From NCBI RefSeq assembly GCF_900218015.1, contig NZ_UFQQ01000005.1, positions 1-64,000 of the forward strand: DNA of 64,000 nt. The letters are read 5' to 3'. The position numbers and the translations under genes are program-made. Shown here piece after piece: positions 35,150 through 39,680 of the stretch (positions are counted from its first letter, which is position 1; every line of letters starts with the position of its first letter). The notes under the pieces are model-generated. The model searched no databases. It was given only the letters and a program-made list of their open reading frames with translations, and was not told where the DNA came from. Source of the DNA: Rhodopseudomonas pentothenatexigens (GTDB lineage Bacteria > Pseudomonadota > Alphaproteobacteria > Rhizobiales > Xanthobacteraceae).

Positions 35150-35226
35150 GCAGTTGTAGCTCAGTTGGTTAGAGCGCCTGTCTGTGGAACAGGAGGTCGG
35201 TGGTTCGAGCCCACCCAACTGTACCA
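35150..35226 (+). tRNA. tRNA-His (GTG anticodon)
   Basis: A full 77-nt cloverleaf: acceptor GCAGTTG / CAACTGT, D-stem GCTC / GAGC, anticodon stem CCTGT / ACAGG with loop CTGTGGA (anticodon GTG), T-arm GGTGG-TTCGAGC-CCACC and an encoded CCA. Discriminator base 73 is A and the base before position 1 is T, so there is no encoded G-1 and no C73. This is the atypical tRNA-His form known from a large group of alphaproteobacteria, whose HisRS and tRNA co-evolved. Confidence 0.96.
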
Positions 35227-36795: not shown

Positions 36796-37470
36796 ATGAA
36801 TGTTATCGTTTTTGCTTCGCGTAAAGGCGGGTCGGGGAAGAGTACCCTCGCCGCTCACTTGGCTGCACAGGTTCACAAAGCATCGCGTCCCTGCCTGCTG
36901 ATCGATGCGGATCCGCAAGGCTCGCTGACGCTGTGGCACAAGCTTCGCGGAACTAACGAGCCGCCGTTGCGCACCGCCACCAGGTCGATCAGCGACATCG
37001 TCGCCGCCGCCAAGCGAGACGGTGTCGAATGGGTGTTCGTCGACACTCCGCCGAACCTGTCCGCCGTCGTCGACGATGCGATCCGTAACGCCACGATGGT
37101 GATCATTCCGGCGCGGCCGGGCGTGTTCGACGTCAACGCGGTGCAGGACACGATCCAGACCTGCCGCTCGCACCGCAAGCCCTATGCGGTCGTGCTCAAC
37201 GGCGCGCCGGCGCTGCGCGACGAGGTCGAAAGCCGCATCGTCACCATCGCGCGGGACGCGCTGGCGAAATTCCGTGCACCGGTATGGGGCGGGCAGATCA
37301 CCAACCGCGCCGACCTGCTGATGGCCCTCGGTGAGGGGCAGGGCGCACGCGAATACGCAGCCGAGGGCCGCGCGGCCTACGAGATCAGCCGGCTGTGGGC
37401 GGCGATCGAGCGCTCGGTCAAGGCGATCCGCGGTGCCGGAAACTCCGGCATGCACAAGCAGGCGGCTTAG
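36796..37470 (+). CDS. ParA/MinD-family ATPase (orphan)
   Basis: 224 residues. The deviant Walker A motif ASRKGGSGKSTLAAHLA (about residue 7) has both signature lysines, Walker A' is LLIDADPQGSL (about 36) and Walker B VFVDTPPNL (about 80). This is a dimerising, cargo-positioning ATPase of the ParA superfamily. No parB or other partner gene is adjacent, so it is not the chromosomal ParAB pair; positioning of another cargo is likely. An upstream palindrome may control it. Confidence 0.88.
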   Translation: MNVIVFASRKGGSGKSTLAAHLAAQVHKASRPCLLIDADPQGSLTLWHKLRGTNEPPLRTATRSISDIVAAAKRDGVEWVFVDTPPNLSAVVDDAIRNATMVIIPARPGVFDVNAVQDTIQTCRSHRKPYAVVLNGAPALRDEVESRIVTIARDALAKFRAPVWGGQITNRADLLMALGEGQGAREYAAEGRAAYEISRLWAAIERSVKAIRGAGNSGMHKQAA

Positions 37471-37571: not shown

Positions 37572-37600
37572 AAAAAAACCGGGCTCACGCGGAGCCCGGT
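37572..37600 (-). terminator. Rho-independent terminator of the small RNA
   Basis: Perfect 8-bp stem ACCGGGCT / AGCCCGGT (37578-37585 with 37593-37600), 7-nt loop, followed on the minus strand by seven T residues (37572-37578). A textbook intrinsic terminator pointing left. Confidence 0.85.
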
Positions 37601-37708
37601 CTAAGGTCTTTGGCCTGATAGGCCGACACAATCACCTTCCAAGAGGGATAACTGAGCCGCCGCGCTACAGGAGGAGGGGGACTGTGTGTAGCGCAACCCC
37701 TCAGCATG
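37572..37708 (-). ncRNA. Candidate anti-Shine-Dalgarno small RNA downstream of lsrB
   Basis: About 137 nt on the minus strand. From 5' to 3': a CCTCA-TGC-TGAGG hairpin; a stem GCGCTACA / TGTAGCGC (37662-37669 with 37687-37694) whose 17-nt loop contains CCCCCTCCTCC, complementary to Shine-Dalgarno sequences; then a strong terminator. A promoter-like TTGCCG-N17-TCAAAT precedes it. Small RNAs with exposed CCUCCUCCC loops (the alpha-r14 or 'cuckoo' type) are known in alphaproteobacteria and are thought to pair with ribosome-binding sites. A proline-rich reading frame here ends inside the terminator stem and is not believed. Confidence 0.65.
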
Positions 37709-37714
37709 AGGACG

Positions 37715-37743
37715 ATTTGATCCGCGATCGGCGGTCGCGGCAA
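37715..37743 (-). promoter_or_regulatory. Candidate promoter of the small RNA
   Basis: On the minus strand TTGCCG (37738-37743), 17-nt spacer, TCAAAT (37715-37720). Spacing is ideal and the -35 fits alphaproteobacterial housekeeping promoters. It lies between the lsrB stop and the predicted RNA start near 37708. Confidence 0.5.
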
Positions 37744-37752
37744 GCGGTCCCC

Positions 37753-37771
37753 CCGCATGTCAGACATGCGG
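37753..37771. repeat. Palindrome CCGCATGTC-A-GACATGCGG after lsrB
   Basis: Perfect 9-bp arms around a single base, 13 bp after the lsrB stop codon and just upstream of the small-RNA promoter. It may be a weak 3'-end hairpin for lsrB (no U tract follows) or an operator for the RNA promoter. Confidence 0.5.
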
Positions 37772-37784
37772 AGCCGGAGGGCGC

Positions 37785-38708
37785 TCAGCCCGGCCAGCGC
37801 TGCGCCTTGTTGACGACGAAATCGCGGAACACCTGCACGCGCGCCACCGTCTTGAGTTCCTCCGGATAGACGAAGTAGGTGTCGAGCTGGATCGAGTCTT
37901 CTTCGCCGAACAACTGCACCAAGCGGTTGGTGTCCTCGATCAGATAGTCCGGCAGCGCGGCGATGCCGAGGCCCTGCTGGCAGGCGCGCACCAGACCGAG
38001 GATGTTGTTGACCTTGAAGTACGGCTCGCGCGGCCCCGTGCCGTTGCGGCCGGCCTCGATCAGCCAGCTCCGGTTCTGCAGATGCGGCGGCACCTGGCTG
38101 TCGCTCAGCATGATCAGCCGATGATCGTCGAGCTCCTCCAGCGTCCGCGGCGTGCCGAAATTCTTGATGTATTCCGGCGAGCAATAGGCGTGGAAGCCGA
38201 TCGAGAACAGCTTGCGCTGGATCAGATCGGGCTGGGTCGGCTTGCGGGTGCGGATCGCGACGTCGGCCTCGCGCATCGACAGGTCGAGCTCTTCGTCGGT
38301 CACGATCAGCGAAATCCGGATTTCCGGATACAGCGCGGTGAACTCGCCGAGCCGCGGCACCAGCCAGTGAATGCCGAGCCCCGGCGTGGTGGTGACCTTG
38401 AGGTCGCCGCTCGGTCGCTCGCGGCTGTCGGTCAGCTTGGCGCGGGCCGCCTGCAACTGCATGAACACGTCGTGCGCGGTGCGAAACAGCAGGTCGCCCT
38501 GTTCGGTGAGGATCAGGCCACGCGCGTGACGATGAAACAGCGACACCGAGAGCTCCTGCTCCAGCGCGCTGACCTGGCGTGACACCGCCGACTGCGACAG
38601 TCCGAGCTGCTCGCCGGCATGTGTGAAACTTCCCGCTTCGGCAGCGGCGTGGAAGACCTTCAGCTTGTCCCAGTCCATATCGGTGAACCCGTCGCGGTGT
38701 CGCGCCAT
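37785..38708 (-). CDS. lsrB: LysR-type regulator, LsrB/VtlR-like
   Basis: 307 residues. The N-terminal helix-turn-helix DKLKVFHAAAEAGSFTHAGE and LSQSAVSRQVSALEQELSVS is LysR type, followed by a LysR substrate domain (VTTTPGLGIHWLVPRLGEF, about residue 110). The sequence and its place directly after trxB match LsrB/VtlR of Rhizobiales, regulators linked to oxidative stress, envelope and small RNAs such as AbcR. The start at 38708 has GGAG nine nt upstream and lies 6 bp after the trxB stop, implying co-transcription; an alternative ATG is 38678 (MDWDKLKV). Confidence 0.85.
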   Translation of the reverse strand: MARHRDGFTDMDWDKLKVFHAAAEAGSFTHAGEQLGLSQSAVSRQVSALEQELSVSLFHRHARGLILTEQGDLLFRTAHDVFMQLQAARAKLTDSRERPSGDLKVTTTPGLGIHWLVPRLGEFTALYPEIRISLIVTDEELDLSMREADVAIRTRKPTQPDLIQRKLFSIGFHAYCSPEYIKNFGTPRTLEELDDHRLIMLSDSQVPPHLQNRSWLIEAGRNGTGPREPYFKVNNILGLVRACQQGLGIAALPDYLIEDTNRLVQLFGEEDSIQLDTYFVYPEELKTVARVQVFRDFVVNKAQRWPG

Positions 38709-38714
38709 CAGAAA

Positions 38715-39680
38715 TCACTCCGCCGCTTGGCGGTCGCCGGCGCGCAGCGCCAGGAAGCGTTCGGCTTCGAGGGCCGCCATGCAGCCCATCCCGGCAGCGG
38801 TGACGGCCTGCCGGTAGGTGTCGTCGGCGACATCGCCGGCGGCGAATACGCCCGGCACCGAGGTCGCGGTCGAATTCGCCGCGACCTCGACGTAGCCGGA
38901 CGGTTTCAGCTTGATCTGGTCCTTGAACAGTTCGGTCGCCGGCGCGTGGCCGATCGCGATGAACACGCCGTCGGCCTTGATCTCGCTGATCGCGCCGGTC
39001 TTGATGTTCTTCAGCCGGACATGGGTGACCTTGGTCGGGTTCTCGGCGCCACAGACCTCCTCGACCGCGACATCCCAGACCACCTTGATCTTGGGATGTT
39101 TGAACAGCCGGTCCTGCAGGATTCGCTCGGCGCGGAAATGATCGCGCCGGTGCACGATGGTGACGCTGGCGGCGAAGTTGGTCAGGAACAGCGCCTCCTC
39201 GACCGCGGTGTTGCCGCCGCCGACCACCACGACGTCCTTGCCGCGGTAGAAGAAGCCGTCGCAGGTGGCGCAGGCGGAGACGCCGAAGCCCTTGTAGGTC
39301 TGCTCTGAGGGAATGCCGAGCCAGCGCGCCTGCGCGCCGGTGGCGAGGATCAGCGTGTCGGCGAGATAAACGTCGCCGCTGTCGCAGGTCAGGCGGAACG
39401 GCCGCTGGCTGAGGTCAAGATCGACCACCAGATCGGTCTTGATCCGGGTACCGACGTGGAGCGCCTGCTTTTCCATCTGCTCCATCAGCCAGGGCCCCTG
39501 GATCACATCCGCGAAGCCGGGATAGTTCTCGACGTCGGTGGTGATGGTGAGCTGGCCGCCGGGCTGCATGCCCTGGATTAGGATCGGCTCCAGCATCGCG
39601 CGGGCGGCGTAGATCGCGGCGGTATAGCCGGCCGGTCCTGATCCGATGATGACGACCTTGGCTTGAACCGGACTCGACAT
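38715..39680 (-). CDS. trxB: Thioredoxin-disulfide reductase
   Basis: 321 residues. FAD-binding VVIIGSGPAGYTAAIYAARA at the N-terminus, redox-active CATC in GVSACATCDGFFYRGKD (about residue 138), NADPH-binding GGGNTAVEEALFLTNFA (about 158) and the C-terminal FAD motif VFAAGDVADDTYRQAVTAAG (about 283). It reduces thioredoxin with NADPH. First gene of a trxB-lsrB unit. The 256-bp gap to the divergent Lrp gene contains an AT-rich stretch near 39850-39880 that probably carries promoters. Confidence 0.96.
   Translation of the reverse strand: MSSPVQAKVVIIGSGPAGYTAAIYAARAMLEPILIQGMQPGGQLTITTDVENYPGFADVIQGPWLMEQMEKQALHVGTRIKTDLVVDLDLSQRPFRLTCDSGDVYLADTLILATGAQARWLGIPSEQTYKGFGVSACATCDGFFYRGKDVVVVGGGNTAVEEALFLTNFAASVTIVHRRDHFRAERILQDRLFKHPKIKVVWDVAVEEVCGAENPTKVTHVRLKNIKTGAISEIKADGVFIAIGHAPATELFKDQIKLKPSGYVEVAANSTATSVPGVFAAGDVADDTYRQAVTAAGMGCMAALEAERFLALRAGDRQAAE

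Follow-up and report, generated by a model that had tools for sequence, protein, structure and literature searches.

The lsrB-proximal locus

The DNA analyzed here (the window) is a stretch of 64,000 nucleotides from Rhodopseudomonas pentothenatexigens. On its minus strand, trxB and lsrB are followed by a compact unit comprising a promoter, a small RNA region and an intrinsic terminator, beyond which lies a convergent gene for a ParA-type ATPase (Table 1). We infer a 5′ end for the RNA at ∼37707, 77 bp past the lsrB stop codon. The gene was found as a single copy in a genome-wide search using a covariance model of the Bradyrhizobium/Rhodopseudomonas clade that includes the window (model R1; match at 37572-37716, E = 1.4e-38). 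Rfam's sole match in the window was a tRNA gene at 35150-35223 (71.2 bits).

An earlier reading made from the sequence alone (the sequence-only reading) had proposed a TTGCCG-N17-TCAAAT promoter, a small hairpin, an 8-bp stem exposing a loop motif and a strong terminator. The promoter is present exactly as described. The loop CCCCCUCCUCC lies inside the stem formed by GCGCUACA and UGUAGCGC (37694-37687 paired with 37669-37662), and the terminator was found as CCGGGCUC-N5-GAGCCCGG-U7 (37599-37572), with the loop CGCGU in the window. The separate small hairpin placed before the main stem is unconserved; outside the 8-bp stem, the 5′ CUGAG (37704-37700) pairs instead with CUCAG (37656-37652), giving one long interrupted stem-loop. 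The proposed extent of the unit held from promoter to terminator and fell short at its upstream end, where a palindrome had gone unlisted.

Table 1. Features of the small RNA locus and its neighbors, in window coordinates.
Feature	Position	Strand	Remarks
AbcR-like small RNA gene	37572..37707	-	∼136 nt; single copy in genome; follows lsrB
lsrB/vtlR-type LysR regulator gene	37785..38708	-	Pfam HTH_1 and LysR_substrate
trxB, thioredoxin reductase	38715..39680	-	conserved neighbor upstream of lsrB
ParA-type ATPase gene	36796..37470	+	convergent with small RNA gene
LsrB-box palindrome GCATGTCTGACATGC	37755..37769	-	37769-37757 fits GCAT-N3-TG-N3-T
-35 element TTGCCG	37738..37743	-	TTG 92-100% conserved; fixed distance from box
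-10 element TCAAAT	37715..37720	-	CATAAT or CATACT in most relatives; 17-nt spacer to -35
Stem-loop 1	37652..37704	-	outer CUGAG/CUCAG and inner GCGCUACA/UGUAGCGC; both-side changes in 11 of 16 aligned pairs
Anti-Shine-Dalgarno loop CCCCCUCCUCC	37670..37680	-	aSD1/M1 position
Near-invariant 28-nt core UCCCUCUUGGAAGGUGAUUGUGUCGGCC	37621..37648	-	aSD2/M2 position; follows stem-loop 1
Intrinsic terminator, U7 tail	37572..37600	-	5 of 9 pairs covary

Conservation and structure of the small RNA

Of 16 Rhodopseudomonas genomes, 15 contain the small RNA region, all but an 800-contig draft; it aligns at about 78-90% identity within the genus. Matching DNA was also present in 10 further genomes of the GTDB family, and trxB-lsrB precedes the small RNA stretch in all matched loci. 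GTDB genomes were then scanned with a pattern consisting of the loop plus the core, making no use of gene context, which gave at least 119 loci. Of the 119 matches listed, 118 come immediately after lsrB and belong to Bradyrhizobium, Afipia, Tardiphaga, Rhodopseudomonas or other relatives; the one remaining locus, in a spirochaete, is probably a chance match. The spacer between the end of lsrB and the loop varies, from about 99 to 319 nt in nearly all homologues.

Loss of the RNA from relatives that keep the flanking genes had been named in the sequence-only reading as evidence that would count against it. Such loss was seen in one genus (g20; G034, G222 and G243, with genomes of 3.4-3.9 Mb), where lsrB is retained at 84-85% identity. 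Two of its loci (L274 and L275) have neither the LsrB box nor the small RNA, and a third (L272) has a decayed copy without the core (36 bits). Elsewhere in the clade, retention is near-universal. As a separate observation, loci L298-L302, from some genera of the same family, keep the LsrB box and a CAGCUGUUCCCCUCUGGAAGG core with stem-loop 1 and its CCUCC loop shortened or missing, as if the second anti-Shine-Dalgarno motif alone remained.

The calculated fold energy was -60.8 kcal/mol, versus -46.2 ± 3.7 kcal/mol for shuffled sequences (z = -3.9). Across 39 non-redundant sequences, the consensus structure consists of the long interrupted stem-loop 1 and the terminator. Changes on both sides were seen in 16 of 25 pairs, compared with 7.4 ± 1.6 in shuffles, none of 500 shuffles reached 16, and 95% of cells in the same alignment were paired, as opposed to 27-48% when the partners were slid. 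The loop CCCCCUCCUCC is largely unpaired in the structure ensemble. Note that the minimum for the single sequence pairs CUGAGG with CCUUAG, which is 4.3 kcal/mol better than the conserved form; the conserved form of stem-loop 1 thus rests on covariation. A middle hairpin, GGCC-N5-GGCC, is plausible and shows no covariation. The sequence-only reading is supported in seeing a small RNA that bears an anti-Shine-Dalgarno loop and, judged by these comparisons of sequence, the small RNA gene beside lsrB is real and is conserved through Bradyrhizobium and its relatives.

LsrB box and promoter

The palindrome upstream of the promoter corresponds to the LsrB/VtlR consensus GCAT-N3-TG-N3-T from Brucella and Agrobacterium (PMC7486931). 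In the promoters of the clade it is near-invariant as GCATGWCTGACATGC. Among 38 non-redundant relatives, 13 of its 15 columns are 95-100% identical, versus about 30-55% in most flanking columns, and the -10 region is also conserved above background. The exact published box occurs in 106 of the 118 lsrB-linked loci (among the matches listed) and in 32 of 39 non-redundant relatives. Assuming a start at 37707, the 13-bp core of the box lies at about -62 to -50 and the full palindrome at about -62 to -48. The S. meliloti promoter PabcR1 carries an LsrB box at -61 to -49; removing this box lowers activity more than 22-fold, and almost no activity remains when either the box or LsrB is missing (PMC8844928). 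In rhizobia, LsrB is a redox-responsive regulator (PMC8844928, PMC11975290).

Comparison of the window's LsrB with LsrB proteins from other genera and families showed 79-100% identity in the HTH region and 54-82% over the remainder. This conservation of the DNA-binding region supports a shared binding site. A link between lsrB and the small RNA, which the sequence-only reading had suggested, gains both from the perfect published box at the expected promoter position and from the adjacency of the two genes at 118 of the 119 loci listed. The predicted control of the small RNA by LsrB is well supported by sequence.

A search of the genome for the LsrB box with one mismatch allowed gave 15 matches, versus 1 for the reversed control. 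Several of the 15 begin coding sequences, GCATGGCTGAC- being similar to an ATG start context, and only at the small RNA locus does a full palindrome stand at a promoter. A near-match, GCATGTCTGATAT (L249; G000:C66:2287-2299, plus strand), lies upstream of a gene whose start, judged by eye, resembles that of a dusB-type tRNA-dihydrouridine synthase; the gene is a possible further LsrB target. In some genomes of the family (L281, L277 and L279), two tandem LsrB-box-like palindromes were found downstream of lsrB, for example CATGGCAGGCATG or CATGGCAGACATG near CATGGCTGACATG or CATGGCTGGCATG.

LsrB might not be the activator, with the palindrome serving another regulator or with LsrB acting as a repressor. 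LsrB control in this genome is predicted from sequence, and one VtlR-dependent Agrobacterium sRNA lacks the proposed box (PMC7486931). Against this stand the exact match to the consensus at the promoter position seen in PabcR1, the adjacent and co-conserved lsrB with its conserved HTH region (79-100% identity to other genera and families), and the position of the genome's sole promoter-borne full palindrome at this very locus. We consider such a scheme rather unlikely.

Relationship to AbcR RNAs

In S. meliloti, AbcR1 and AbcR2 are located between lsrB and SMc01226 (PMC3712013, PMC8844928). At the corresponding site in other families of the Hyphomicrobiales, a box, a promoter, a CCUCCUCCC-like hairpin, CAGCUGUUCCCCUCUGGAAGGUGAUU, a further hairpin and a terminator were often found, and the clade core UCCCUCUUGGAAGGUGAUUGUGUCGGCC corresponds to CAGCUGUUCCCCUCUGGAAGGUGAUU in the AbcR-like RNAs of other genera. 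Many genera of the same GTDB family carry intermediates downstream of lsrB (for example L026, L273 and L293).

With profiles of AbcR-like RNAs drawn from other families, the small RNA locus ranked first in the window (E = 1.1e-5); profiles built on other same-family genera gave the same outcome at E = 3.5e-7. With the terminator removed from the profiles the locus was still the best match, at E values of only 0.18 and 0.47. Most of the homology signal from primary sequence includes the terminator. Model R1 matched outgroup RNAs over their full length with scores up to 54.9 bits, compared with a maximum of about 22 bits for matches to the terminator only. In genome-wide R1 searches, 11 same-family genera outside the clade gave matches; in each of them the top match lay on the lsrB strand, within about 0.5 kb after that gene. 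Among 6 genomes from other families, the top match likewise followed closely on lsrB in 3.

Searched at E values up to 5, the Rfam alpha-r15 model (ar15, RF02345; cut-off 40 bits) did not match the region, and over the whole genome it gave only a 14.2-bit chance match elsewhere. Among lsrB-adjacent RNAs of other genomes, one (L158) exceeded the cut-off at 40.4 bits and others fell under it (L195, 37.5 bits; L230, 33.4 bits; L232, 32.5 bits; also L162).

Brucella AbcR RNAs act via two targeting hexamers, CUCCCA (M1, in the loop) and GUUCCC (M2) (PMC5461406). CUCCCA was present in none of 39 clade members and GUUCCC in one of 39, versus 15 and 17, respectively, of 23 same-family sequences from outside the clade. 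Those 23 had been selected with CU-rich core patterns and not with GUUCCC by itself. A further 19 sequences from other families were chosen by a pattern containing UUCCC, and their GUUCCC is not countable as evidence. The loop of the clade reads CCCCCUCCUC in 38 of 39 sequences, and CCCCCTCCTC is likewise present in 38 of 39. Replacements resembling anti-Shine-Dalgarno motifs occupy both the M1 and the M2 positions.

Because position, promoter, architecture and sequence agree, the small RNA is assigned as an AbcR1-type orthologue. It is called an AbcR-like orthologous branch, not a formal member of ar15, because the Rfam score falls short and the M1 and M2 hexamers are absent. The rhizobial AbcR RNAs block translation of mRNAs; the window RNA seems to belong to a branch of them that diverged long ago and has rewritten binding motifs, and a variant within the known AbcR kind is the safe claim. 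The standard RNA databases miss the lsrB-adjacent small RNA of this clade.

Other RNA families and alternative readings

The sequence-only reading had likened the RNA to the alpha-r14 (cuckoo) family, a kinship that the analysis does not support. A covariance search with Rfam RF02344 (ar14; cut-off 58.8 bits) gave no match at the locus, the best score in the genome being 26.3 bits elsewhere, and the weak ar14 matches elsewhere in the genome are unconvincing as RNAs. There is one loop of this type where ar14 has three hairpins, each bearing the motif, the terminator loop lacks it, and related RNAs at this locus resemble AbcR/alpha-r15. An alpha-r14/NfeR1 RNA, or a fresh anti-Shine-Dalgarno RNA that arose beside lsrB and is unrelated to AbcR, would suit the loop CCCCCUCCUCC, which is closer to the alpha-r14 motif CCUCCUCCC than to AbcR M1. 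NfeR1, an anti-Shine-Dalgarno RNA of the alpha-r14 family, is also LsrB-activated in S. meliloti (PMC10746234), and two lsrB-adjacent loci match ar14 weakly (L163, 37.0 bits; L166, 29.0 bits). However, intermediates at the same position within the GTDB family connect the window RNA to AbcR-like RNAs, and together with the failed model match and the single motif this makes either origin improbable.

At L163 and L166 the ar14 scores exceed those for ar15, and several CU-rich loops are present, one of them in the terminator loop of L163. The alpha-r14 and alpha-r15 families may share an origin. With fairly low probability, AbcR and NfeR1 could be branches of one ancient LsrB-activated family, with the window clade as a transitional form that has the AbcR position, promoter and scaffold and an alpha-r14-like loop; seed replacement would then have switched its regulon without any change in the LsrB input. 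The weak ar14 matches at L163 and L166 fit such common ancestry.

No Rfam family searched at gathering and relaxed thresholds fits the locus. The suhB/MmgR model (RF00519; cut-off 41 bits) reached 19.7 bits at the terminator end only. A 132.7-bit match to BjrC1505 (RF02356) sits at another locus (G000:C37:26482-26619) with a different sequence; BjrC1505 was also found in most of the relatives that were searched, including some from other families of the order. BjsR1 of B. japonicum USDA 110 (transcription start at 1,134,665, minus strand) is reported to be conserved in Bradyrhizobium and Rhodopseudomonas and to have an RpoD promoter (PMC5082802); compared by description only, it could be the same RNA. 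The literature searched, which covered part of the key papers, held no account of the small RNA in Rhodopseudomonas or of AbcR in Bradyrhizobium.

The unit might be the mere 3′ end of the lsrB mRNA, given that both lie on one strand, with the predicted start 77 bp past the lsrB stop codon, and that a strong terminator closes the unit, but the box, -35 and -10 are conserved although the spacer from lsrB varies, and the loop and core are near-invariant, which leaves this reading very little room. It is equally hard to credit that the core GGAAGGUGAUUGUG serves a small protein as ribosome-binding site and initiation codon: GGAAGG does stand a few nucleotides before UUG/GUG, with almost no variation in the clade, but the frame is lost after GUG UCG GCC, with peptide lengths and frames differing through indels in the next hairpin (alignment read by eye).

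Proposed mechanism and significance

The reading that we prefer, at a probability of roughly 80%, is that the small RNA is the clade's orthologue of AbcR1, activated by LsrB, and that its anti-Shine-Dalgarno loop and core block translation of mRNAs in trans, probably with Hfq. LsrB, encoded just upstream, would bind the palindrome and activate the sigma-70 promoter. The resulting transcript of ∼136 nt, ended by its own terminator, would present CCCCCUCCUCC as the loop sequence of stem-loop 1, and a second CU-rich stretch, UAUCCCUCUUGG, would follow that stem-loop. Both stretches would pair with ribosome-binding sites and so block translation of target mRNAs, probably many of them for nutrient uptake. 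A U7 tail, the feature considered for Hfq, is present at the 3′ end.

By duplex energy, predicted pairing with the start regions of 30 Peripla_BP_6 (ABC-transporter) genes did not exceed that with 27 dehydrogenase genes taken as controls (p = 0.26). The pattern GGAGGAGG-ATG occurred 16 times, versus 11 in the control, and was hardly enriched. We infer, from its likeness to AbcR, that the small RNA works in the same manner.

In the Rhizobiaceae and Brucellaceae, AbcR RNAs exert major post-transcriptional control over nutrient uptake, symbiosis and virulence, and the Rfam AbcR model falls short of the Bradyrhizobium/Rhodopseudomonas clade. If the AbcR1-type reading is true, the LsrB-AbcR circuit spans much of the Hyphomicrobiales, soybean symbionts and phototrophs included. 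The clade would then show a small RNA whose regulator and scaffold stayed fixed while its targeting motifs changed, and would amount to a natural experiment on the rewiring of small RNA regulons.

Comparison with known systems

VrsA of Agrobacterium is directly activated by VtlR through an LsrB/VtlR box (PMC7486931). It shares the box with the window RNA but lies between atu4669 and atu4670, not beside lsrB. BjrC1505, an sRNA of Bradyrhizobium and Rhodopseudomonas, is from the same lineage and of similar length, and differs in locus and sequence. NfeR1/alpha-r14 (RF02344) shares the CU-rich anti-Shine-Dalgarno loop motif and the activation by LsrB, shown in S. meliloti; its three hairpins each bear CCUCCUCCC, whereas the window RNA has one such hairpin and no match to the model.

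AbcR1/alpha-r15 (RF02345) of Sinorhizobium, Agrobacterium and Brucella has the loop UCCUCCC/CUCCCA where the window clade has CCCCCUCCUCC. Alpha-r15 RNAs of the Rhizobiaceae and Brucellaceae occur in multiple copies per genome (PMC3712013); the window RNA, by contrast, is single-copy, its clade lacks GUUCCC in the core of 38 of 39 members and has an extra near-invariant UUGGAAGGUGAUUGUGUCGGCC, and the Rfam model is unmatched. The two are alike in lying next to lsrB, in the promoter position of the LsrB box, in the anti-Shine-Dalgarno loop of stem-loop 1, and in the conserved CU-rich core and terminator, and they are joined by continuous intermediates in related genera.
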